A stretch of DNA of 64,000 nt, taken from assembly GCA_903905455.1 (NCBI GenBank), contig CAIVGN010000191.1:1-64000 (forward strand), given 5' to 3'. The notes beneath the pieces are model-generated. The model worked only from the letters and a program-made list of their open reading frames with translations, was not told where the DNA came from and did not search any database. Shown here in pieces: positions 47,146 to 62,050 of this stretch (position 1 is the first letter of the stretch; every line of letters begins with the position of its first letter). Source of the stretch: an uncultured Archangium sp. Its GTDB lineage: Bacteria; Myxococcota; Myxococcia; Myxococcales; Myxococcaceae. Made by a program: the position numbers and the translations under genes.

Positions 47146-48576
47146 TCACATCGAAATGGTGTGGAGCCGCAGCGAATTGATGCGGCCGGCCTGCCCCACG
47201 GGGGCGCCGAAGACGATCACCACGCGGTCACCGCGCTTGGCGAGGCCCCGGGCGAGCAGCTCTTCCTCGACGCGGGTGACCATCTCCTCGGTCTCCTGCA
47301 CCGGCTCGAGCACGCGCGGCATCACGCCCCACAGCAGCGCGAGGCGACGGCGCACTTCCTGGTTGGGCGAGAAGGCGATGATCGGCACCGACGGGCGGTA
47401 GCGCGAGAGCAGCCGCGCGGTGGTGCCGGTCAGGGTGAAGGCGACGATCAACGCGGCCCCGGACTCGCGGGCGGCGCGGCAGGCCACGCCGCAGGTCACG
47501 TCGGGGAAGTCGGCGGGCGACTTGGTGGGCTCGCCGGTGCCCACGCGAGGGAACGATTGGCGCATGGCCGACTCGGCGGCCTCCACGATGCGGCTCATCA
47601 TCTCGACCGACTCGATGGGGTAGCGACCCGAGGCCGACTCGCCCGAGAGCATCACCGCGTCGGTGTTGTCGAAGATGGCGTTGGCGACGTCGCTCGCCTC
47701 GGCGCGCGTGGGGCGCGGGTGCTCGATCATCGAGTTGAGCATCTGCGTGGCGACGATCACCGGCATGCCGCGCAGGTTGGCCCGGCGGATGATGTCCTTC
47801 TGGATGGCGGGCACTTCCTCGGGGGGGATCTCCACGCCGAGATCGCCGCGGGCCACCATCACGCCGTCGGTCTTGTCGAGGATCGCGTCGAGCCGCGCGA
47901 TGGCCTCGGGCTTCTCGAGCTTGGCGATGATCGGCACCACCCGGCCGAACTCCTCCATCGCCTGGCGGCACTGGTCGATGTCTTCGGGGGTGCGCACGAA
48001 CGAGAGCGCCACCATGTCGATGCCGTTCTTGAGCCCGAAGATCAGGTCTTCGCGGTCCTTGGGCGTCAGCGCGTCGGCGCGCAGGGTCACGCCGGGCAGG
48101 TTGATGCCCTTGTTGTTCTTCAGCGTGCCGCCGTGGATGATCTCCGTGCGGATCAGGCTCTTCTTGTCGGTCGCCAGCACGCGCAGCTCGAGCAGGCCGT
48201 CATCCACGAGGATGCGATCGCCCACGTTCACGTCTTCGGCGAGGTGCGGGTAGGTGGTGGACACCAGCGTCTGCGTGCCCAGCGCCGACTCGTCGGTGGT
48301 GATCGACAGCTCCTGGCCCTCGACCAGCTCGATGGCGCCCTTCTCGAGCTTGCCGGTGCGGATCTTCGGGCCCTGGAGATCGCCCAGGACGCCCACGGCC
48401 TTGCGCACCTTGAGCTGCGCCGCGCGCAACCGCTCGATGGTCAGCAGGTGGTCGGCATGCGTGCCGTGGCTGAAGTTCAGCCGGGCGACGTCCATGCCTG
48501 CGTTGATCAACTTTTCCAACATCTCCTGCGAGTTGGTGGCGGGGCCCAGCGTGCAAACGATCTTCGCGCGTCTCAT
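47146..48576 (-). CDS. pyk: Pyruvate kinase
   Basis: 476 residues from ATG 48576 (MRRAKIVCTLGPA); a GTG two codons upstream is possible. It catalyses phosphoenolpyruvate plus ADP to pyruvate plus ATP. Seen: 'TLGPAT', 'ARLNFSHG', 'DLQGPKIRTG', 'IIAKLEKPEAIARLD' with the catalytic Lys, 'DGVMVARGDLGVEIP', 'VATQMLNSMIEHPRPTRAEASDVANA', and a C-terminal allosteric domain. Single-domain-set bacterial length. It is convergent with the HD-GYP gene (10-bp gap); a GCCCCGC/GCGGGGC hairpin overlaps the HD-GYP stop. Confidence 0.97.
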   Translation of the reverse strand: MRRAKIVCTLGPATNSQEMLEKLINAGMDVARLNFSHGTHADHLLTIERLRAAQLKVRKAVGVLGDLQGPKIRTGKLEKGAIELVEGQELSITTDESALGTQTLVSTTYPHLAEDVNVGDRILVDDGLLELRVLATDKKSLIRTEIIHGGTLKNNKGINLPGVTLRADALTPKDREDLIFGLKNGIDMVALSFVRTPEDIDQCRQAMEEFGRVVPIIAKLEKPEAIARLDAILDKTDGVMVARGDLGVEIPPEEVPAIQKDIIRRANLRGMPVIVATQMLNSMIEHPRPTRAEASDVANAIFDNTDAVMLSGESASGRYPIESVEMMSRIVEAAESAMRQSFPRVGTGEPTKSPADFPDVTCGVACRAARESGAALIVAFTLTGTTARLLSRYRPSVPIIAFSPNQEVRRRLALLWGVMPRVLEPVQETEEMVTRVEEELLARGLAKRGDRVVIVFGAPVGQAGRINSLRLHTISM

Positions 48577-48598
48577 GGGCACGGTTATAGGGACGGAG

Positions 48599-49213: not shown

Positions 49214-50077
49214 TCAGCGGCGCAGCAGTTCCTGGAGGTGCTGTCGCTCCCAGGCCATGGCCGCGTCGTACTTCGGGAAGCTGCGCTCGCGCTCGCGGAA
49301 CGCGCGGGGGTGGTGCACGTGGCGCCCCGTGTCGCGCGCGCTGGGGAAGAGCTGGTGGAGCATCTCGTGGAAGACGATGAACTCCACGAAGAAGCGCGGC
49401 ACGTCAGGGCGATCGAGCGCCGGGTGAAGCCGGATCTCCCGCGCCTTGTGATCGTAGACCCCGAGGCGGATCGACTTGCGGCGGCGCTTGCCGGTCTGGC
49501 GGCCCCAGCCGATGCGCGCCTCCACCTTGCCCTCGAAGTGCGCGACGTTGATCTCCTCGAGCAGCACCTGGAGATCGAAACACTCGCCCCGTGACTCGAG
49601 GGCCGTCGGCTTGCGGGGGAAGGCGCGAATGAGCACCTGCTGGTGCGCGATGTAGTCGTCGAGCGCTGCGCCCGCGGCCGGCTTGCCTTGCCCCGCGTAC
49701 TCGGCGATCGAGCGGATCACCTCGGGGGGCGCGTCGAGGAACATGTGGTGCGCGCGGATCTTCAGCAGCGGCGGTTGTCGCCGGAAGCTGATCATCGTCG
49801 AGCGGTTGTCATGCACCGTCAGCAGCACCTTGAACTCGGACCCCAGGATGGCGGCGATCTGCGTGGCCAGCGCCCGCGCCCGGGCAAGCGTCTGCTGGCG
49901 CGTCGGCAGGGGGGGCACGGCCACGTGCGGGACGCGCGGCGCCGGCGCGGGCACAGGCTCCGGCACCAGCGGCTGGACAGGCACCAGGACCGGCACCGGC
50001 ACCGGCCTCGGGGGCTGCGCCACGGGCGAGACCGCGCGGGCCTTGCCGAACAGATCGAGCTGGCGGGGAGCGAGCAT
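49214..50077 (-). CDS. SprT-like zinc metalloprotein
   Basis: 287 residues from ATG 50077; TTG 50101 and GTG 50080 are possible alternatives, and no strong ribosome site decides. A Pro/Val-rich N-terminus (16-60) precedes the SprT-like domain with zinc motif 'HEMLH' at 237-241 and a third His likely in 'HHPRAF' about 15 residues later. It has the mini-gluzincin layout of SprT/Spartan-type proteins, which include proteases acting on DNA-protein crosslinks, but members are often uncharacterised. Ends 3 bp from the convergent ASCH-like gene. Confidence 0.82.
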   Translation of the reverse strand: MLAPRQLDLFGKARAVSPVAQPPRPVPVPVLVPVQPLVPEPVPAPAPRVPHVAVPPLPTRQQTLARARALATQIAAILGSEFKVLLTVHDNRSTMISFRRQPPLLKIRAHHMFLDAPPEVIRSIAEYAGQGKPAAGAALDDYIAHQQVLIRAFPRKPTALESRGECFDLQVLLEEINVAHFEGKVEARIGWGRQTGKRRRKSIRLGVYDHKAREIRLHPALDRPDVPRFFVEFIVFHEMLHQLFPSARDTGRHVHHPRAFRERERSFPKYDAAMAWERQHLQELLRR

Positions 50078-50115
50078 CACCGGGAGGATCGTTGTAGCCA
50101 AAGACGGGAGCGGTG

Positions 50116-50156
50116 AAAACGACAGGCGCCCGGCCCCTGTGAGGGAGACCGGGCGC
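50116..50156 (-). terminator. Likely terminator of the metalloprotease operon (minus strand)
   Basis: An 8-bp stem (GCGCCCGG 50126-50133 with CCGGGCGC 50149-50156) and an inner CCCT/AGGG stem. Four U residues follow a few bases later on the minus strand. The short, slightly displaced U run makes it weaker than the other terminators, but it is correctly placed 25 bases past the operon's last stop. Confidence 0.55.
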
Positions 50157-50180: not shown

Positions 50181-53100
50181 TCAGTTCGAGCGGCCGAAGA
50201 TGGCGTACAGCCCGCGCATCATCTCGAGCGTGCGGGTGGCGTCACGAACCTCGACCTCCCACTGCGCCGCGGTCTTGCCGTCGACCGGCTGGTTGGCGGC
50301 CACGGCGGCCTCCCACTTCACGCGGAGCCCAGCGGCGCGCTCGACCATCGCCGCACCGGCCGGCGGGTTGACCAGGCCGGTCTTCTTCATGGCGGCGTAG
50401 ACGTAGCCGCCACCGAAGGGGTCGTTGAAGGTGACGACCGAGAAGCCGGCCGCGGGGGTCAGGTTGTCCGACGAACCCAGGCGGAACACCTGGTTGAAGT
50501 TCGCGAACTCCATGTTCCCGTTGGTCGTGAAGTACGCCATCGACAGGAACTGCGCGTAGAAGCGCGCCGTCCACGTCGAGATGGGGGCGACCTTCGACAT
50601 CACCATCGGCTGGCCGCTGCCATCCACGGGGATCGCCGGGGCCAGGGGGTAGATGAAGCCCGGCACGAAGTCCTGCGCGCGGATGAACGAGGGCTGCTGG
50701 ATCACCGCCGTGCCGTCGGACTGCTTGCCCAGCTGGGGCGCGTAGTACGAGGAGTTCTGGGTCCAGTAGTTGTTGAACAGCGGCGCCATCTCGAGATTGA
50801 ACGTCGTGTAGTACGGCAGCGAGTAGCGCAGTGCATCGGAGCCGCGGTCCACGCCGAGGAAGTTCGTCTCGCTCGTCGCGAGCGCGATGAGCGAGGCGTA
50901 GACGTCCCAGAAGTGACCGGCCTCGTTGACCCGGTTGAAGTTGTCGTAACCGAAGGTGTCGTAGACCGTGAACATGCTGCGGCCGGGGCCGCGGGGCACG
51001 TACACGATGTCGGAGTAGGCGCCGTTCTGGGGCTTGGCGAGCTCGGTCTTGAGCGACGCTTCGGCCGCGGTCTCGAGGCGACGGTTCTGCGGGTCACCCG
51101 TAGGCACGTACTCCCACGAGCCGTCGGTCTTCTTGCCGTGGTAGCCGGCGGAGGGCACGGCGAGCTGCTGCATCAGCAGGTTCGTCGAGTCGATCACCGC
51201 CATCGTCCAGTAGTTCTGCCAGATGGGGTCGCCGAGGCCGTAGAACTTGTCCATCTCCTCGGGGGTCAGCTGGTAGTACTTCGCCAGGTAGAAGATGTTG
51301 AACAGCCACTGCTGGTAGACATTGGGGATGTTGCCCAGGTAGCGGCCGAACTTGCGCGAGGCGACGGCCGACGGAGAGAAGGTCAGCCGGTCACGGCGGA
51401 AGTTCTCGAAGACGTAGGCCTGGTTGAAGCGCTCCATCCACTTCGTGGTCATCTCGAAGACGTCGGCGCCCTGGTCGTTGCGGTTGCACAGCAGGTTCGC
51501 GCCGACTTCGTAGTCGGAGCAGAACATGTAGGGCACCTCGACGGGGATGGTGTGCCCGCCGGCCGAGAAGCGGTCAATGGTGGTGTTCACCTCGTCGACG
51601 AGCAGCAGGCGGTTGTGCGTCAGCTCGGCGGGGTTGGTGAACTCGACGGCCACGAAGTGCTTGCCCGCGGTGAGCTCGGTCTTGAACTCGAAGGTGCCGG
51701 TGAAGGGCGAGGTGGTGGGCGAGCCGAAGGTCAGCGCGCTGACCTGGGTGCCGTCGAGGCTCACGGTGAGCGTCGCGCGGCTGGTGTCGCCCGAAGGCAG
51801 CGACTCGCTGAGCTTGACCTGGATCTTGTAAAGGCCCTTGCTGAACGGCTCGATGGCGAAGCGCACCGCCCCGCGATCACGCAGCGCGAAGGACGAGCCC
51901 TCGACCTGGTTGCAGAGCACGAGGCCGCACTTGATCTCGGAAGCCGACGAGAAGAACTGGGGGCCCGTGAGGTTCTGCGAGTGCGCGTTGGTGATGATCT
52001 CGCTCGCGCGCTCGTAGTCGTTCTGCCGCAGGCTGGTCTCGGACAGGGTGTAGGTCTTCAGCGAGCGCTCGATGGCCTTGTAGTGCCCGTCGAGCTCGCT
52101 CCACCGGCGGAACGAGCGGTTCTTCATGCGGGTGATGCCCTGGTCGAGCATGCCCTCGAAGGAGGCCTGCTCGTCCGCGAAGTGAAAGGGCAACGTCGTG
52201 TAGTGGTACTTGTCGGTGTAGAAATTCGAGGCCGGCGTGTAGTGCTCGACCTGCGCCAGTGGGATCTCCACGTGGGCGCCGCGGGCGGTGAAGACCTTCG
52301 CCTGGTTGTCGAGGGGCACCGTGATGTTCGGGGCCTTGTTGGGGTCGCGCATCTCGTTGAAGACCTCGACCCAGCCGGGCTCGAAGCCGCCCGCGTAGGC
52401 AAAGAGGATCGCCGCGTCGTCGTACTTGCCGGTGCCGCGGTTCTGCGAGTTGACGCGCGCGCCGTAGTCCATGATCGACGAGTACTCGAGCTCGTACATC
52501 GACTCGTCGATCTGCTTCTGGTTGAGCTTGGCCGCGTCGACCAGGTTGGCCGGCGTCACGGGCAACACCCGCTTGCCGCCGACCTGCACGCCGATGGTGT
52601 CCTTGCGCAGGTCCCAATACCCGTCGTGGTAGTTGAGCGCGTCGGCCGAGGCGATGAAGTTGTGCATCAGGCCGAGGGTGTGGCCGATCTCGTGCTCGGT
52701 GACCGAGCGGTACGCCTCGCGGCGCAGCGAGTCGTAGACCTGGGCCTTGGCGAGGGTGAGGGCCTCTGCGTCGCTCTTGCCCTGGCCCTTGTAGCCGGCG
52801 ACCAGGTCGCGCTGCATCTTGACCTTGCGCTTGGCGAGGCCGACGTAGTCCTCGTCATCGTAGGAGAACTCGTAGAAGCAGCCGACGTTGGAGTCGGGCG
52901 TGTTGCGGATCTTGGCGATGGCATCTTCGACGGGGTCGATGCCCAGCAGCATGTTGCGCGCCACCTGGCGGTAGAACGCCGAGTCGGTCTGCAGCTTGGC
53001 CTGGAAGCCCTTGTTGGTGGTCAGCGACTGCACCGCGATGCGCACCTCGGGCAGGTTGACCAGCTCCTCTTCGAGCGCGGGGTTGTTCTTGACCAGGCGC

Positions 53101-54812
53101 TCGACGACCGCGCGGCGGTTCTCGTGGGCCAGGGGCAGCGTGCCGTTCTGCTTCCACTGCTCGGCGAGGGTCTTGAGCTTGCCGTCGAGGTTGGCGAAGG
53201 AGCTCATGGGGCGCGTGGGCTCCGAGACGAGGCCCTGCTGCGAGTTCCACGGGCCGTTCGCCGGGCGGCGGGGGTCGGTGGGGTTCAGGTTGGCGAAGAC
53301 GTAGTCCTTGATGTCCTTGCCGGTGACGAGCTCGCTGAGCGAGAGCTCGCCGCTGACGACGTCGATCACCTGCTGCGAGCTGCCCGCCCAGGTGTCGAGG
53401 CCGGGACCGTAGATGTTGGCCGCGGCGTGCACGACCATGCCCGTCTCGGGGTCGACCGACGACGGCCCGAGGCCGAGGAGGCCGCCGGCGTTCTGGTCCA
53501 CGTAGGGAACGATGTTGTACCGGAGGTCGCCGATGCGGGCGTAGGTGCCGGGCGCGCCGCACGCTTCGGGCGAGCCTTCACGAACGGGCGACTCGCACAG
53601 GTAGAACATGTGGTCGACCTGGCTGACCTCGAGGCCGCGCGGCACGGCCACGGCGCGGCGGTAGGCGCGGTCCCACGAGGCTTCGATGGTCTGCTCGGGG
53701 TCGAGGCCGTGCTGCACCGCGAGGTGCCGCGAGCCGACGCCCTCGATGTGCGCCGGGGTGTTGGCCGTCATGTAATAGACGATGGGGCGCAGGCCGCGCT
53801 TGTCGACGGGAATGGTGCCACCGGCGTCGTCGTGCGCGCGCTGCCAGATGTTGTGGCGCATCGCGAAGAACTGCTGGCCCGTGTACGTGTAGCCGTAGTC
53901 GAGCGAGTAGCTGTACGACTCCTGGCGGAAGAAGCCGAACTTCTTCATCAGGCGGTTGTTGTAGACGAGGGGCTCGTAGTCGTTCGAGACCGACTCATCG
54001 ACCCGCAGCACCGAGGTGCGGATGCGCACGTCGACGCTCTCGCAGTCGACGGTGGGGTTGAAGAGGCACAGCGGCAGGTTGCCGTAGCCCTCGTAGTAGA
54101 TGCTCGGCGGGTTGACGATCAGCTGCGTCGTCCAGTCGAAGTACGTGAGCTTGTCGCTGGCGTCGCGCGAGAAGGTCATCGACTGGTCCTGCGGCTGCTG
54201 GTCCTGGTCGGTGATGTAGCGCGTGAGCAGGCCCAGGCCGCCGACGCACGCGAGGTTGGGGTTGACGATGCGCTGCGCGGCGCAATCAGACTCGGAGTTC
54301 TCGATCTGGTTCGCGTGCCAGTTCACCCGCATGAACTCGCGCTCGTACCAGGGGCGATCCTGCGAATCTTCGACCAGCACGTTGCTCTGCTCGCCGGTCG
54401 ACGCGTTGTACTGGCGCTGGCGATCGAAGTGGCTCTGGATGCGGTACGCGAAGACCGGGTTGCCCTTGTAGGGGCGGCCGTCCTGGAAGACGACCTTGCC
54501 GAGCCTCGACTTCTCGCGGTCGACCATGGGGTCGGCGCCGGGGATCACCTCGTAGGCGCGGTAGGCGACGAGGAGATCCTCCTGCACCTCCCAGCGGATC
54601 TTCTCCATCTTGCCGCCGTAGCCGATGGTGGCGACGCCGTTGGGCGTCTTCGGCGCGTCGACGATGGACTCCTTGATGTACCAGGTGCCCTGGAGCAGGT
54701 CGGACTTCTTGATGTAGTTGGGCTGGGTGCGGTCGATCAGCTCGGGCTGACCGCACGCCGCCGCGAAGATCGCGGTGGCGGCGAAGACGATGCTGCGGAA
54801 CAGGCGGTTCAT
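50181..54812 (-). CDS. Giant zinc-metalloprotease lipoprotein A
   Basis: 1543 residues from ATG 54812, best spaced from AGGGA; ATG 54818 is possible. The signal peptide has an A-A-A-C20 lipobox (MNRLFRSIVFAATAIFAAAC). The metzincin-like zinc motif HExxHxxGxxH is 'HEIGHTLGLMH' starting at residue 707, followed by 'EYSSIMDY', a Met-turn-like segment. This combination resembles the DUF4953/PF16313 zinc-dependent metalloproteases, but the chain is nearly twice as long. Residues ~955-1090 form a beta-sandwich/CBM-like insert absent from its neighbour. It is the last gene of a three-gene operon with its paralogue and a barrel protein; predicted surface or periplasmic protease. Confidence 0.9.
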   Translation of the reverse strand: MNRLFRSIVFAATAIFAAACGQPELIDRTQPNYIKKSDLLQGTWYIKESIVDAPKTPNGVATIGYGGKMEKIRWEVQEDLLVAYRAYEVIPGADPMVDREKSRLGKVVFQDGRPYKGNPVFAYRIQSHFDRQRQYNASTGEQSNVLVEDSQDRPWYEREFMRVNWHANQIENSESDCAAQRIVNPNLACVGGLGLLTRYITDQDQQPQDQSMTFSRDASDKLTYFDWTTQLIVNPPSIYYEGYGNLPLCLFNPTVDCESVDVRIRTSVLRVDESVSNDYEPLVYNNRLMKKFGFFRQESYSYSLDYGYTYTGQQFFAMRHNIWQRAHDDAGGTIPVDKRGLRPIVYYMTANTPAHIEGVGSRHLAVQHGLDPEQTIEASWDRAYRRAVAVPRGLEVSQVDHMFYLCESPVREGSPEACGAPGTYARIGDLRYNIVPYVDQNAGGLLGLGPSSVDPETGMVVHAAANIYGPGLDTWAGSSQQVIDVVSGELSLSELVTGKDIKDYVFANLNPTDPRRPANGPWNSQQGLVSEPTRPMSSFANLDGKLKTLAEQWKQNGTLPLAHENRRAVVERLVKNNPALEEELVNLPEVRIAVQSLTTNKGFQAKLQTDSAFYRQVARNMLLGIDPVEDAIAKIRNTPDSNVGCFYEFSYDDEDYVGLAKRKVKMQRDLVAGYKGQGKSDAEALTLAKAQVYDSLRREAYRSVTEHEIGHTLGLMHNFIASADALNYHDGYWDLRKDTIGVQVGGKRVLPVTPANLVDAAKLNQKQIDESMYELEYSSIMDYGARVNSQNRGTGKYDDAAILFAYAGGFEPGWVEVFNEMRDPNKAPNITVPLDNQAKVFTARGAHVEIPLAQVEHYTPASNFYTDKYHYTTLPFHFADEQASFEGMLDQGITRMKNRSFRRWSELDGHYKAIERSLKTYTLSETSLRQNDYERASEIITNAHSQNLTGPQFFSSASEIKCGLVLCNQVEGSSFALRDRGAVRFAIEPFSKGLYKIQVKLSESLPSGDTSRATLTVSLDGTQVSALTFGSPTTSPFTGTFEFKTELTAGKHFVAVEFTNPAELTHNRLLLVDEVNTTIDRFSAGGHTIPVEVPYMFCSDYEVGANLLCNRNDQGADVFEMTTKWMERFNQAYVFENFRRDRLTFSPSAVASRKFGRYLGNIPNVYQQWLFNIFYLAKYYQLTPEEMDKFYGLGDPIWQNYWTMAVIDSTNLLMQQLAVPSAGYHGKKTDGSWEYVPTGDPQNRRLETAAEASLKTELAKPQNGAYSDIVYVPRGPGRSMFTVYDTFGYDNFNRVNEAGHFWDVYASLIALATSETNFLGVDRGSDALRYSLPYYTTFNLEMAPLFNNYWTQNSSYYAPQLGKQSDGTAVIQQPSFIRAQDFVPGFIYPLAPAIPVDGSGQPMVMSKVAPISTWTARFYAQFLSMAYFTTNGNMEFANFNQVFRLGSSDNLTPAAGFSVVTFNDPFGGGYVYAAMKKTGLVNPPAGAAMVERAAGLRVKWEAAVAANQPVDGKTAAQWEVEVRDATRTLEMMRGLYAIFGRSN

Positions 54813-54844
54813 GTTCATTCCCTGAAGAGTGTGGATGGCCATGT

Positions 54845-57800
54845 TCAGAACGCCTTCCCGAAGGCCTGGTACATGCCGCGCTGCGTGTCGAGGTCGCGGA
54901 TGGCGTCCTGGAAGACCTCCGTCCAGTACTTGCGACGGTCTTCGAGGATCGCCGGGTTGTTCCCCTGGTCGGCCGGCAGGCAGGTGTAGCCGAGGAAGAA
55001 GATGTAGTCGGGCAACGGGCAGGTGGTCGGGTCGAGGACCAGCTGGCGGTACTGGTTGGCGATGTCGATCATGCGCACCGCGCCCGTGCTGTTGGGGGCG
55101 GCGCCGTCCTTCTCGATGGCCACGTAGCGGTGGCCGGTGACTACGTCAGGCACCTCGACCGTGTGGTAGCCCGGCGCGACCTGGAAGGCCTCGCCGCTGC
55201 CCAGCTTGAAGATCTGGTTGGCCTTCGAGTAGTCGAGATCGTTGTTCACCCGGAAGTACGCCATGCCCAGGAACAGGCCGTAGATGCGGCTGGTGTACGT
55301 GAGCTGAATGTTGGCCGGCGCGGGGTTCTGCGCGGTCTTCCAGCAGTCGTCCTTGAACGGGGTCTGGCCGACGGAGCAGTTGCGGCGCTCGCGGGGGTAG
55401 TTGAAGCCCGCGAAGAAGTCGGTGCCGCGCACGTAGGTGCGCCACTCGATGTTCGCGGCGTCCTGCACCTCGTCGCCGGAGTTGACCGACTTGTAACCCG
55501 TGGGGCGGATCTTCTCTTCGTCGTTGGCCCACAGCGAGCTGAAGGTGCTCTGGAACTCGTCGCGGAACACCAGGTAGTACGGGATCGCGTAGCGGTCGCT
55601 GTCGGCCGTGACGTCGACGCCCTGGATCTCGATGTCGGGGATCACGGCCGCGAACATCGCGCCGATCTGATCGTTGTAGTGCCCGGCCTCGAGCATGCGG
55701 TCCCAGAAGCCGAAGCCCGACTTGTAGTCGAAGCGGCTGTACATGCGGCGCCCCAGGCCACGGGGAATGGTCATGAAGTCGGTCGCCTGGTAGCGGCTGC
55801 GGTACAGGTCCTCGAGGCGCTGGCGGCCGGCGGGGTTCAGGTAGTCGAAGTCGTCACCCTGGCTGATGAGGTCCCAGCGGGGCCCGCCACGCAGGTTGCG
55901 CAGCATGAACAGGCCGTCCGGGGGCACCGACATCACGTTGAGGTGCTGGTTGACGCCGTCGAGCACGGCCATCGTCCAGTAGTCCTGCATCAACGGGTCG
56001 AGCTTGTAGCGGCTGACCTGCTCCTGGCCGCGCGAGCTGGTCTTGTAGAACTCGTAGACCCAGTGCTTGTACGAGTTCGACACGAAGAAGAACGTGCCGA
56101 AGGTGCGGTTGAACGCGGCGTTGCCGCTGAAGAACGCGCGGTCACGGCGGAAGTGGCTGTCGAAGTAGTAGTTCCAGTAGTCCTCGAGCTTGGTGCGGAC
56201 GATCTCGTAGTAGTCCGGGCCGCGGTCGAAGCGGTTGCACGAGAGCACCGGGCCGTCGGCCGAGTCGTCGCTGCAGAACATGTACGGCACGCGGAGCAGC
56301 GGGCTGCCGATGACGCCGGCGGCGCGGTCGGGGTCGTCGATGAGGGTCGGGTCGGCGAGCATCGCGGTGCGCACGCGGGCCTCGTCGGCCACCACGGCGG
56401 TCCACTTCTCGAGGTGGCGATCACGCAGCTTGCTGATGCCGTCGTTGATGATCGCGTTGATCTCGTTGCCCTCGCCGAAGTGCAGGGGCACCGTCGAGTA
56501 GTGGAAGCGCTCGGTGTAGTTGCGCACGTTGGGGTTGGTGTGCGTGACGTTGACCATGGGCAGGTCGGCGCCGGCGCCCGAGATGGTGAGGTTGGCGTTG
56601 TCTGAACCGGGCACGACCTTGGAGGTCTTGCGCGCGCCGTTGAACACCTCGACGTAGCCGGGCTGGGTGTCACCCGAGTAGGCGAAGATGAGGGCGGCCT
56701 CGTCGTAGCGACCGATGCCGGCCCAGTCGCCGTAGATCTTCCCCGAGTAGTCCATGATCGACGAGTACTCGTGGTTGTGCATGCCGGTGGTGAGCTGGTC
56801 GGCGGTGCCGTCGGTCACCTTCTTCATGTCGGCCGGGGTGCGGGCCACCTTGGCGACGCCGTTCTGCTGGATGGTGAGGGTCTCCTTGCGCAGGTCCCAG
56901 TACTTGTCGCCGTAGTTGATCGAGTCGTACGAGCCCTGGAAGTTGTGGCGCAGGTTGAGGGTGTGCCCGGTCTCGTGGAGCGCGGTGGCGAGCCACACCT
57001 GCTGGCGCAGCTGGCGGGAGATCTCGTCGTCGGCGATGCCGCGGGCTTCGTCGGTGGTGCAGCCGCTGACGTTGGCGCAGCGCGCGTTGCCGCCGTCGAC
57101 GAGCTCCTTCACGCGGTTGTTGCGGTAGAGGATCTTCTCGTTGGCCACGCCGACCAGGGTGCGGTCGTAGAAGTCGAAGGTCGTGATGCTGTGCTTGCCC
57201 AGGTACTCGAGGCGGGCCTTCTCCCAGTTCTGGGACAGCTTGATGTTGGTGAGCACCGAGCGCGAGGCGTCGCGGAGGAAGTTCGGGTCACGCGCGGCGG
57301 CGCCGCGGGCCACGGCGGGGAGCAGGTTCACGAGGTCGGCCTGCACGTCGGGGTTGTCGAGCAGGGCGGCCTCGAGCTCCGGGTGCTTGGCCAGCTCGTC
57401 GGCGGCCTTCTTCATCTGGTCGCCGCGCGAGGCGATGGTGGCCTTGTCTGCCTTGAGGGTGGCCATGAGGTTGGCCATGCGCATCGAGGGGCGATCCCAG
57501 GCGCCGACGGACTCGGCGTTGCGGGTCGGCTCGCCCTGGAGCTCGGACTGCAGCACGCCCTGCTTCTGGAGCTTGGCGATGTTGTAGACCGGGTTCTGCG
57601 CGATGTAGTCGTGCGCCTGCTGGCCGGAGATGTAGCCGTCGAGCGTCTGCTCCTTGTTCAGCAGGAGGATCCAGTTGAGCACCGAGCGGCCGTAGAGATC
57701 GACGCCCCAGGTATAGGTGTTCGACATGGCCGAGATGATCTGCCCGGTCTCGGGGTCGGCCGAGCTGGGGCCGTAGCCGAGCAGGCCGTTGGCCACAGGC

Positions 57801-59158
57801 TCCGCGACGGTGTTCACGAAGCTGTGCCGGAGGTCGCCGATCTTCGGCGAGAAGCCCGCATCACCACACTCGATGGGGTCGCCCGACTTCACCGGGTTGT
57901 TGCACAGGAAGAACATCTGGCGAACGGTCGAGGGGTCCTTCTGCTGGGCGGCGCCGATGGCGCGGCGGAAGGCGCGGTCGTAGTCCTTCTCGATGGTCCG
58001 GCCCGGCTCCCAGAACTCGTCGTAGCGGGCGGTGCCGCCCATGCGGGCGGCGGGGGTGAAGTAGTAACGGATGGGCTCGGGGGTACGCGCCGCCATGGCG
58101 ATGGCCTGGTCGGTCACCTCGCCGTTGGCCTTCTGGTAGTACTCCTTCCAGACGCGGTGGCGGTTCGCGAGGCGGATGACGGCCGAGTCGTTGAACCCGA
58201 ACTTCTTGTCGTAGTTGAGGCGGTCGGTGCGGAAGTACCCGAAGTACGACATCAGGTCGTTCGGGAACTGCAGCGGCTCGTAGTCACGCGACCAGGTGGT
58301 GTCGACCTTGGCGATGGAGACCCGCATGTGGATCTCGCTCGCGGTGCAGTCGTTCATCTGCCCGTAGCTGGCGAAGTAGCAGAGGGGAACCGCGCCGAAG
58401 CCCTCGAAGTAGGTGGTGTCGGGCGAGGCCATGTAGCGGCCAGTGACGTCGAAGTAGACGAGCTCTTTCTTCCCGTCGCCGTTGCGATCGGCGTACTCGA
58501 AGCTCGGCCAATCGTAGGGGTCGGTGCCCGGCTCGTTGGGCTGGATCCAGTTGGAGTTGGTGACGCCGCTGGCCGGGTTCTGCACCGTGCCCCAGTTCAG
58601 GCCCGAGGCCTGGTTGAGCACGTTCATCGCCCAGTTCACGCGGATGTACTCGCGCTCGTTCCACGGGCGATCCGAGGCGTTCTCGGAGACCACGTTGGTC
58701 TGCTCGCCGGTCGCCGGGTTGTACCCGCGCTGGATGTCGAAGTGGCTGACGATGGGGAAGGCCACCACCGGAGCGCCGTAATACTTCTGGCCGCCCGTGC
58801 ACACGCCCGCGGCGTTGCAGTACTTGGCGGTGGTGCCGGAGATCTTCGACGTCTGGTCGACGTTGGCCTCGGCGCCGATGGCGTAGGCGTAGGAGCGGTA
58901 ACCGACGAGGTTGCCTTCCTGGACCTCCCACACCAGCTTTTCCATGTTGCCGGTCTGGCCGGGGAACGTGAACTGGGTGTTGAACGGCGTCCAGGTCACG
59001 GTGTTGCGGAAGAACCACTGCCCGTCGAGCAGGTCCGCCTTGCGGACGACGTTGGGCTGAACACGGACGACATCGCCGTTGCTCTGCGCGCAGCCGACCG
59101 CGAACAGCACGGTGACGGCAGCGGCGAGCCAGCGCCAGTTGGTGGAGCGACGGGTCAT
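54845..59158 (-). CDS. Giant zinc-metalloprotease lipoprotein B (paralogue of A)
   Basis: 1437 residues from ATG 59158, with GGAGG 5 bases upstream. Signal peptide MTRRSTNWRWLAAAVTVLFAVGC, lipobox A-V-G-C. It shares with protein A the mature start 'QPN...DLL-G-W', the block 'GPSSxDPETG', the zinc region, 'EYSSIMDY', and a C-terminal 'VPYMFCSD...CNR' and 'FRRDR' block. Its zinc motif is 'HETGHTLNLRH' from residue 728, with Asn where metzincins normally have Gly. The protein sits 32 bp upstream of gene A and 43 bp downstream of the barrel gene. Confidence 0.9.
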   Translation of the reverse strand: MTRRSTNWRWLAAAVTVLFAVGCAQSNGDVVRVQPNVVRKADLLDGQWFFRNTVTWTPFNTQFTFPGQTGNMEKLVWEVQEGNLVGYRSYAYAIGAEANVDQTSKISGTTAKYCNAAGVCTGGQKYYGAPVVAFPIVSHFDIQRGYNPATGEQTNVVSENASDRPWNEREYIRVNWAMNVLNQASGLNWGTVQNPASGVTNSNWIQPNEPGTDPYDWPSFEYADRNGDGKKELVYFDVTGRYMASPDTTYFEGFGAVPLCYFASYGQMNDCTASEIHMRVSIAKVDTTWSRDYEPLQFPNDLMSYFGYFRTDRLNYDKKFGFNDSAVIRLANRHRVWKEYYQKANGEVTDQAIAMAARTPEPIRYYFTPAARMGGTARYDEFWEPGRTIEKDYDRAFRRAIGAAQQKDPSTVRQMFFLCNNPVKSGDPIECGDAGFSPKIGDLRHSFVNTVAEPVANGLLGYGPSSADPETGQIISAMSNTYTWGVDLYGRSVLNWILLLNKEQTLDGYISGQQAHDYIAQNPVYNIAKLQKQGVLQSELQGEPTRNAESVGAWDRPSMRMANLMATLKADKATIASRGDQMKKAADELAKHPELEAALLDNPDVQADLVNLLPAVARGAAARDPNFLRDASRSVLTNIKLSQNWEKARLEYLGKHSITTFDFYDRTLVGVANEKILYRNNRVKELVDGGNARCANVSGCTTDEARGIADDEISRQLRQQVWLATALHETGHTLNLRHNFQGSYDSINYGDKYWDLRKETLTIQQNGVAKVARTPADMKKVTDGTADQLTTGMHNHEYSSIMDYSGKIYGDWAGIGRYDEAALIFAYSGDTQPGYVEVFNGARKTSKVVPGSDNANLTISGAGADLPMVNVTHTNPNVRNYTERFHYSTVPLHFGEGNEINAIINDGISKLRDRHLEKWTAVVADEARVRTAMLADPTLIDDPDRAAGVIGSPLLRVPYMFCSDDSADGPVLSCNRFDRGPDYYEIVRTKLEDYWNYYFDSHFRRDRAFFSGNAAFNRTFGTFFFVSNSYKHWVYEFYKTSSRGQEQVSRYKLDPLMQDYWTMAVLDGVNQHLNVMSVPPDGLFMLRNLRGGPRWDLISQGDDFDYLNPAGRQRLEDLYRSRYQATDFMTIPRGLGRRMYSRFDYKSGFGFWDRMLEAGHYNDQIGAMFAAVIPDIEIQGVDVTADSDRYAIPYYLVFRDEFQSTFSSLWANDEEKIRPTGYKSVNSGDEVQDAANIEWRTYVRGTDFFAGFNYPRERRNCSVGQTPFKDDCWKTAQNPAPANIQLTYTSRIYGLFLGMAYFRVNNDLDYSKANQIFKLGSGEAFQVAPGYHTVEVPDVVTGHRYVAIEKDGAAPNSTGAVRMIDIANQYRQLVLDPTTCPLPDYIFFLGYTCLPADQGNNPAILEDRRKYWTEVFQDAIRDLDTQRGMYQAFGKAF

Positions 59159-59201
59159 GTTGCCTCCAGAAGAGAGCTGCAGGTTTCGCGAAGACATGGG
59201 G

Positions 59202-60362
59202 TCAGTAGGCCGCGGAGAGGGTGAAGTAGATCGACGTTCCGTTGTCGGCCCACGTGCCAAGCGAGAGGAAGGGGAAGCGGACCTGGCCGGTCGGCGTGAG
59301 CGGGGTCTGGACGGTGCTCACCCCGAGGTCGAGCGAGTAGTGCTCGTTGAGCTGGTACGAACCGCCGAAGTACGACGAGGTGCGGTCGCTCTGGCCGAGG
59401 CCGACCTTGGCCACCGGGTTGCCGTTGTCGTCGAGGGCCTTGGGCGTCAGGTCGTCGACGGCGGTGGTGATGCCGTGCTTCCACGAGCGGATGTACGTGT
59501 AGCCGGCGTAGAGGAGGAAGCTGCCCGTCGCGCGCCACTGGATCTGGCCGCCGGCGGACAGCGACCACGCCGGGTTGGCGCCGCCGGTGCCGCAGTACAG
59601 CTCGCCCGCGCGGCACACCGACAGCAGGTTGCCGTTGGAGTCGGTGGGGGTCACGCCGGTGCCGCTGACGTTGGGGTTGCGGAAGCCGTTGAACGACTGG
59701 CCGTAGAACGCGCGCGAGCCCGAGAGCACGGCGCGGAAGTCGACGGTGCCCACCGAGCGCGAGGCGGTGACGCTGACGCTCAGCGCGGTGATCAGGCCGC
59801 CGTTCCAGCTCTCGAGGGAGGTGGGGATGGTGAGGCCGACGCTCGGGGTGAAGGCGATGTTGGTCAGGGCCTTCTCCCTGAACAGCGCGGGGGCCGAGAC
59901 GCCGACGCGGATGTCGCCGACCGACCAGCGACGGCCGGTCTCGGCGTCCGGCAGGGTGTACTCGTAGCTGCCGCGGATGGTGGCGCTGGCCACGAGGCGC
60001 TGCTTGCCGATGCCGAAGAGGTACTGGGGGATGATGGTGAGGTAGGCCGAGAGCGACGAGTAGTAGCGCGCGTCCACGAAGGTGCCCGCGCCCAGGTAGT
60101 GATCGAGGGCGGTGATGAACTGGAAGCCCGACTGGTTGGCCTGCTCTTCGGGCGTGCGCGCCTGGACGGCGTTGGCCAGCGGGTTGGCCGCCTTGGCTGC
60201 GTCCTTCTTCTGCGTGCTGTCGGCGGTGGCCCCCGTCGCGGTCGCGGCTTCAGGCGTGGTCGGGGAAGAAGCCGGCGCCTCGGGCGTTGGAGCGGGCGTC
60301 TGCGCCAGCGCCAACACGGGCACCAGCAGGCTCAGCAAGATTGCGGCAAGCGCCTTCTTCAC
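59202..60362 (-). CDS. Outer-membrane beta-barrel protein of the metalloprotease operon
   Basis: 386 residues with a GTG start at 60362, fixed by GGAGG six bases upstream and by a clean Sec signal peptide (KKALAAILLSLLVPVLALA). After an Ala/Thr/Pro-rich segment (20-75) come many amphipathic strands ending in aromatic residues ('RLVASATIRGSYEYTL', 'FLLYAGYTYIRSW', 'YSLDLGVSTVQTPL') and a terminal 'STIYFTLSAAY'-like strand ending in Tyr, typical of outer-membrane barrels. First gene of the operon; a porin, secretion partner or docking site for the two lipoprotein proteases are all possible. Confidence 0.85.
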   Translation of the reverse strand: MKKALAAILLSLLVPVLALAQTPAPTPEAPASSPTTPEAATATGATADSTQKKDAAKAANPLANAVQARTPEEQANQSGFQFITALDHYLGAGTFVDARYYSSLSAYLTIIPQYLFGIGKQRLVASATIRGSYEYTLPDAETGRRWSVGDIRVGVSAPALFREKALTNIAFTPSVGLTIPTSLESWNGGLITALSVSVTASRSVGTVDFRAVLSGSRAFYGQSFNGFRNPNVSGTGVTPTDSNGNLLSVCRAGELYCGTGGANPAWSLSAGGQIQWRATGSFLLYAGYTYIRSWKHGITTAVDDLTPKALDDNGNPVAKVGLGQSDRTSSYFGGSYQLNEHYSLDLGVSTVQTPLTPTGQVRFPFLSLGTWADNGTSIYFTLSAAY

Positions 60363-60655: not shown

Positions 60656-62050
60656 TCAAGCATCCTGCGCGGTCGCCAGGAGCCGCTGGAGCCTGGCCGG
60701 TTCGAGCCGCAGGAGCATGGTCTTTTCGCGCGTGAAGGTGACCGCGCCGGGGGCCGCGTCCTTGGGTTTGTGGACGAACTTCACCGGCGTGTAGCTGACC
60801 TCGACGCGGGGCTCGCCCTTGGCGTCGGAGTGGTGCGCGGCGAGGTGGGCAGCGTCGAGCAGCAGCTCGCTGCTCAGCGTGGCGTTCTTCTCGATGGGCA
60901 CCACCACGTGCGCCCCGGGGACGCCGCGGGCGTGGAGCCAGACGTGAAAGGGCCGGGCGACATGGAAGGTGAGCGAGTCGTTGTGGGTCGAGCCGCGGCC
61001 CACCCAGATGCGGTGCCCGCCCTGCCCCACGTACTCGCGGTACGGCGGGAGCGCCGGCTGGGCGGCGGTCTTCTCGCGGCGGGAGGTCAGCGGTGGCGGC
61101 GCGCTGGGCGCGGTGTCGAGGGCGGCGAGCTGGGCCTCGAGGGCCCGGCCTTCGGCCTCGAGCACCCCGAGACGCTGCCTGGCCATGTCGGCGCCGCGCA
61201 CCATGCGCTTGTACTGGTGGAACCGGTGCTCGACCTCCTGCTGGGGCGTGCGCCTGGGGTCGAGGGCGATCTCCACGTCGCGGGTGGTGCCGTCTTCGAG
61301 GTACTCGGGCAGCACCACCGAGGGAGCCCCGCGCTGGAGCCGGTAGAGGTTCTGGGTGAGCAGCTCGCCCTCGCGGCGGAAGGCGAGCGCCTTATCGGTG
61401 CGCTCGGCCTCGACGCGCACCTTGGCCCTGGTGCGCTCGAGCTTCTTGAGCTTCGCCAGCAGCGGCGCCTTGCGGCCATCGACGTAGGTCTTCTGCTCGC
61501 TGGCGGCGAAGAGCGCCTCGGCGGCATGGGCGAGGCGGAGCACGGGGCGCTCGCCCTGCAGCCGCGAGGTCGAAGGCTTGAGCGGCTGCTCGTCGAGCGG
61601 CACCCACGGATGGTTGACGCGCAGGCCCGGCCGCGAAGGCACCGAGACGCAGCGCACCCTGGCCTCTCCGGTACACAGCACGATGACCGGCGCGGTGGTC
61701 ACCTCGAGGATGAGGTTCAGGAAGCGCTGCGCCTTGGTGAAGTGCAGCAACAGGGTGCGCCGCGCGGGCAACACCTCGACGTCGGCGAGCTTCGCGCCGG
61801 TCAGTTCGGAACGGAGCACCGACTGCCAGCCCGGAGGCGTGGGCGGGTTCTGCGGGCGCTCCTCGACGGCCGAAAGGCGGGTGACGCCGGGGTCGGCGCA
61901 CAGCAGCAGGGTCACGCTGCGACCCGGCACGCGAACCTCGAAGTACACCCGCGTGGTGGTGGGCGAAGAGACGTGCTGCACCACGCCGCCGGCCAGCTCG
62001 CGGGTGATCTCCGCGGCGATGAGGGACAGCTCTTCAGCTCGCAGCGACAC
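60656..62050 (-). CDS. NFACT (RqcH-like) protein, short form
   Basis: 464 residues with a GTG start at 62050. An N-terminal NFACT-N-like domain ('LADVEVLPARRTLLLHF', 'NPPTPPG') is followed by a Lys/Arg-rich coiled coil (about 195-330) and the NFACT-R (DUF814) domain 'HNDSLTFHVARPFHVWLHARGVPGAHVV' near residues 360-390. RqcH-type proteins bind stalled 50S-peptidyl-tRNA complexes and add Ala tails. It is ~100 residues shorter than usual and reads A96-R97-R98 where the family has an essential Asp-Arg pair. It overlaps the ligase stop by 17 bases. Confidence 0.88.
   Translation of the reverse strand: MSLRAEELSLIAAEITRELAGGVVQHVSSPTTTRVYFEVRVPGRSVTLLLCADPGVTRLSAVEERPQNPPTPPGWQSVLRSELTGAKLADVEVLPARRTLLLHFTKAQRFLNLILEVTTAPVIVLCTGEARVRCVSVPSRPGLRVNHPWVPLDEQPLKPSTSRLQGERPVLRLAHAAEALFAASEQKTYVDGRKAPLLAKLKKLERTRAKVRVEAERTDKALAFRREGELLTQNLYRLQRGAPSVVLPEYLEDGTTRDVEIALDPRRTPQQEVEHRFHQYKRMVRGADMARQRLGVLEAEGRALEAQLAALDTAPSAPPPLTSRREKTAAQPALPPYREYVGQGGHRIWVGRGSTHNDSLTFHVARPFHVWLHARGVPGAHVVVPIEKNATLSSELLLDAAHLAAHHSDAKGEPRVEVSYTPVKFVHKPKDAAPGAVTFTREKTMLLRLEPARLQRLLATAQDA

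Follow-up and report, generated by a model that had tools for sequence, protein, structure and literature searches.

The window (the whole 64,000-nucleotide stretch of DNA that was analysed) was found to encode a three-gene cluster consisting of a predicted outer-membrane barrel and two giant paralogous predicted lipoproteins, A and B, both of which carry a conserved zinc site of the metzincin type; the gene order is conserved in independent genomes, which excludes chance as the source of the observation. The earlier suggestion that two predicted lipid-anchored, DUF4953-related metzincins are linked to a predicted outer-membrane barrel is supported. In the reading that we favour, with a confidence a little short of even, these genes form an outer-membrane protease-channel module that would cut polypeptides at the envelope, the products passing through the barrel. 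The function of the channel-protease sets that recur in Myxococcota has not been described before.

Organisation and synteny of the operon

The genes are transcribed from the minus strand in the order barrel, A (1437 aa, middle) and B (1543 aa, last), with gaps of 43 bp between the barrel and A and 32 bp between A and B (Table 1). The ORF check confirmed the lengths and spacing given in an earlier note on this DNA; the order given there (barrel, B, A) is correct only if A denotes the 1543 aa protein, as it is the 1437 aa gene that lies in the middle. Short gaps were kept across the family loci (36–67 bp from barrel to A and 2–44 bp from A to B), and the three genes are probably co-transcribed. 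The hairpin just 3′ of B was called as a match to the consensus only; a scan for sigma-70 promoters returned zero sites. Between 48,000 bp and 60,000 bp, the GC content was approximately 0.66–0.68 over the operon and approximately 0.68–0.72 in the remaining window, and the GC skew became positive over the operon.

Table 1. Features of the operon and its flanks in the window. The flank names pyruvate kinase, NFACT and DNA ligase are based on Pfam; the SprT-like label was given by eye, with no Pfam match.
Feature	Position	Strand	Details
Pyruvate kinase gene	47146..48582	-	Downstream flank, conserved neighbour; Pfam
SprT-like small protein gene	49214..50101	-	Downstream flank, conserved neighbour; HExxH motif
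Terminator-like hairpin	50126..50156	-	Just 3′ of B; 12 pairs, 10 of them G-C, T-rich tail
Predicted lipoprotein metzincin B gene	50181..54812	-	1543 aa; ORF check
Insert in B	~51576..51992	-	~140 residues, ~residues 941–1079; coordinates approximate
Predicted lipoprotein metzincin A gene	54845..59158	-	1437 aa; ORF check
Barrel gene	59202..60362	-	386 aa; GTG start codon at 60362, last base of the stop codon at 59202
NFACT-domain gene	60656..62050	-	Upstream flank, conserved neighbour, outside the system; Pfam

The earlier note had proposed searching Myxococcota for the same gene order, and synteny did hold across genera: the NFACT gene, barrel, A and B were arranged in this order on one strand in 12 of the 14 family loci (13 fetched loci and the window), with the SprT-like gene and pyruvate kinase next in line in every locus whose fetched sequence was long enough to include them. 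The two exceptions, G032 and G048, belong to the same genus as the window: the barrel was inverted in G032 and, in G048, gone from the locus and encoded on another contig. These two barrels were 75% identical to each other and each had approximately 33–37% identity to the window barrel. Of the family genomes without A and B, 15 were examined and all had the NFACT gene; in 11 of these, from genera that lack the operon, the NFACT gene, the SprT-like gene and pyruvate kinase were found together with the operon absent, i.e. as a clean empty site, and several of these genomes are complete single contigs of 9–13 Mb. Acquisition as a horizontal island was rejected because the flanks are conserved and the locus is also occupied in a different order within the class, despite the slightly lower GC content.

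Lipoproteins A and B

A and B aligned over nearly their whole lengths (33% identity over 1028 residues and 28% over 603 residues, E 2e-154) and every sequence block named in the earlier note was found, in agreement with its description of the two as paralogues. In A, the lipobox cysteine is Cys23, the zinc helix is HETGHTLNLRH (residues 728–738) and the Met-turn is SSIMDY (residues 799–804); in B these are Cys20, HEIGHTLGLMH (residues 707–717) and SIMDY (residues 779–783). An alignment of 29 A and B sequences contained 198 columns conserved at ≥95%, which include the lipobox cysteine and a further six cysteines, as well as HExxH…H, the GPSxxDPETG block and SIMDY. The lipobox cysteine was invariant in the orthologues of A and B and near-invariant in 83 family members, and both proteins are predicted from their sequences to be lipid-anchored lipoproteins.

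The His, Glu, His and His of the zinc motif HExxHxx[G/N]xxH, as well as the Met and Tyr of SIMDY, were invariant in all 83 aligned family proteins, including both members of each pair. Some of the distant loci were found via the zinc motif, which biases its invariance there; whole-protein matches and unselected pair partners are the only sequences unbiased in this respect. The glycine position of the motif was occupied by Gly in 71 proteins, Asn in 10 and Ala in 2, with Asn found in window A and its nearer relatives; ADAMTS enzymes also have Asn at this position. Both A and B are predicted to act as zinc-dependent proteases, and a pseudo-protease partner within the pair was rejected as the zinc site is kept in both copies. 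Of 13 orthologues of B, 12 lacked its insert and one had an insert of different appearance at this site; the insert in window B gave a weak, below-cut-off match to the carbohydrate-binding module CBM60.

No relatives of the A and B proteases were found in the PDB by sequence. The AlphaFold model of A (residues 24–1222; mean pLDDT 83.5, pTM 0.87) was aligned by VIA-align mostly with metzincins over approximately residues 313–812, among them TACE, ADAMTS4, fragilysin and mirolysin, with Z scores of only 3–4.4, and Foldseek returned zero matches for this model at E < 0.001. The VIA-align scores are weak for such a large model, yet they are consistent with a metzincin core. The modelled core of A may share the fold of ADAM/ADAMTS enzymes and fragilysin; A and B differ from these in being predicted bacterial lipoproteins with unrelated flanking domains.

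Relationship to DUF5117/DUF4953 proteases

The likeness of the zinc region to DUF4953 proposed in the earlier note proved to be real but short. Against the curated Pfam cut-off of 24.2 bits for DUF4953 (PF16313), B scored 35.2 bits, above it, and A scored 21.7–21.8 bits, below it; the match spanned approximately 30 of the 316 model positions and was confined to the surroundings of the zinc helix. DUF4953 was matched at E values up to 1 by each of the 29 A and B sequences from the family. DUF5117 (PF17148) had no match in the window genome or by hmmscan of the window proteins, and it was matched in 1 of 117 genomes of the phylum, not that of the window. A profile comparison of the family with five DUF5117/DUF4953-type proteins, from the group named 'zinc-dependent metalloprotease' in Bacteroidota, Caulobacter and sphingomonads, gave 99.4% probability (E 5.6e-22) over 159 columns. 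By this sequence comparison, the A/B family qualifies as remote homologues of the DUF5117/DUF4953 Met-zincins. The two groups have in common the HExxHxxGxxHN helix, the Met-turn and a (G)YGPSxxDPETGEI block, and A and B differ in two extended regions, the stretch that separates this block from the zinc helix and the C-terminal part. Their chains are, as had been noted earlier, far longer, at nearly twice the length of the five compared members (818–877 aa). Neither DUF4953 nor DUF5117 was named in any of the papers covered by a literature search.

In Bacteroides finegoldii and Segatella copri a DUF4953-type protease gene lies directly before a SusC/RagA barrel gene, and in Hymenobacter such a gene comes after the SusC and SusD genes. 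These loci are like the window operon in that a protease gene of this type adjoins an outer-membrane barrel gene. They differ in having SusC, a large TonB-dependent barrel, and SusD as its lid; neither protein was seen at the window operon, and Pfam gave no match to SusC, SusD or a TonB plug in the barrel, A or B. As SusC is a 22-stranded TonB-dependent transporter, the comparison with Bacteroidota is an analogy. On a plasmid of Hymenobacter volaticus (3486 bp–5416 bp), a DUF5117 protein and a zinc-dependent metalloprotease were annotated as two overlapping genes just behind SusC and SusD genes. No plasmid-borne relatives of B were found.

Distribution, ancestry and linkage to the barrel

Relatives of B were found in 23 of 59 family genomes, and the protease profile matched 86 of 195 sampled Myxococcota genomes, representing 64 of 90 genera; despite this spread, Pfam recognises only a 30-residue stretch of these proteases. 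Almost all named relatives were from metagenome-assembled Myxococcota. A few were labelled by their submitters as Bdellovibrio, Oligoflexales or Klebsiella bins, labels that we take with caution.

One genome of another order of the same class (G163) encoded, at the same place, the NFACT gene, the barrel, one protease and the SprT-like gene. In a FastTree phylogeny of the proteases, A and B formed sister clades (support 1.0) and the G163 protease fell in a small group joining A and B (support 0.969). Since G163 has the barrel and a single protease at this site, A and B most likely arose by tandem duplication. The simplest history is one of a single barrel and protease locus, in which a duplication produced A and B in the family of the window and which was lost in other genera. 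This duplication and loss can be tested directly with the help of the empty sites and the single-protease locus of the other order. The first and second genes of other barrel and pair operons in the phylum formed two separate clades of their own; the pairs therefore arose at least twice, and a common origin of all such operons was not supported, A and B being sisters apart from the other pairs.

Across 96 loci, 46 of 50 barrel-profile matches were immediately upstream of a same-strand protease ORF, a count that includes some family loci twice, so that the independent number is lower; an iterated barrel profile found no further loci. For most single-copy protease clades elsewhere in the phylum no barrel was found adjoining the protease, and some barrel relatives (L143, L144 and L147) had no protease nearby. 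The link is therefore not obligatory. L144 is located in the window genome itself (contig C192, 6892 bp–7731 bp), where its barrel-profile match had no family protease within 14 kb.

The barrel and the proposed role of the operon

The barrel protein begins with a signal peptide, followed by approximately 50 disordered Ala/Pro/Thr-rich residues, a conserved LANAVQARTPEEQANQSG segment and a 12-stranded barrel. Its AlphaFold model had 12 strands (mean pLDDT 71), with low confidence in the N-terminal 60 residues. Among solved structures, the model was nearest to the COG4313 channel, FapF and KdgM (Z 18.3, 17.9 and 16.2, respectively), and the 12-stranded channel NanC was also matched; FapF made up the top 18 Foldseek matches. 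The alignments with FapF and COG4313 channels covered approximately 240–247 residues (Z 17.7–18.3) at approximately 10% identity. On this model the protein is predicted to be an outer-membrane channel nearest to COG4313 and FapF, with which it shares the 12-stranded fold, and a fold match is no proof of function. It differs from these channels in its partner genes and in the absence of Fap operon genes.

Under the favoured module, A and B would be exported, lipidated at the conserved cysteine and anchored in the outer membrane, where each would form a large metzincin of several domains whose zinc site is active. They would cleave polypeptides at the envelope, most likely at its outer face, and the co-transcribed 12-stranded channel would pass the peptide products, or possibly the polypeptide substrate, across the outer membrane. 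Such a pairing would be analogous to that of DUF4953-type proteases beside SusC-type barrels in Bacteroidota, and the duplication into A and B may have provided two enzymes of different specificity for one channel.

The main rival gives the barrel a dedicated part in export or display, in which it would move A and B, or a separate polypeptide which they process, outward, in the way that FapF passes unfolded FapC. We regard this as rather unlikely. The rank of FapF among the structural matches is in its favour, as are the dependence of FapF secretion on a partner protease, FapD (PMC5557850), and the disordered N-terminus and conserved segment before strand 1 of the barrel, which can be set beside the linker and plug helix of FapF (PMC5557850). 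The barrel also precedes other protease paralogues. However, the COG4313 channel, from a family implicated in the uptake of hydrophobic molecules (PMC4493636), ties with FapF, and no coiled coil was predicted at the N-terminus of the barrel, where the confidence of the model is low. The six conserved cysteines and large folded domains of A and B also speak against this rival, as do the many single-copy relatives without an adjacent barrel.

Less probable again is a periplasm-facing role in maturation or quality control, in which A and B, anchored in the inner leaflet, would act on proteins that are secreted or destined for the outer membrane, and the barrel would be a client or scaffold. An ordinary lipobox without a known surface-export signal and the family-wide conservation of the zinc site in both copies would fit this, but the clean loss in many genera and the lineage-specific duplications suggest that the role is conditional and not one of housekeeping. 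The predation-related role named in the earlier note is not supported, and a machine that digests prey proteins at contact is very improbable: surface proteases would suit it and Myxococcota is a phylum with many predators, but the 11 clean empty sites are in sampled genomes of the same family, the carriers here are almost only metagenome assemblies, and the phyletic pattern of these genomes speaks against such a role, which uncultured carriers could still have.

Should the pairing of channel and protease in the favoured module prove functional, envelope proteolysis would be joined to outer-membrane transport by a route that needs no barrel of the SusC type, and this in a phylum known chiefly from cultured swarming genera. 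A wider and more doubtful proposal, which we make tentatively, is that of a phylum-wide, undescribed Myxococcota system in which giant lipid-anchored metzincins were repeatedly duplicated behind a FapF/COG4313-like channel and which would do for proteins what Sus does for glycans, without a TonB-dependent barrel.

Further relatives in the window genome

Two other contigs of the window genome are of note. On contig C146 (434 bp–4146 bp) a barrel-like ORF was directly followed by a further paralogue, whose gene is cut off by the end of the contig. Contig C102 (8099 bp–11,323 bp) encoded a separate 1075 aa DUF4953 protein which was not close to A or B and gave a weak match to the Lamin Tail Domain.
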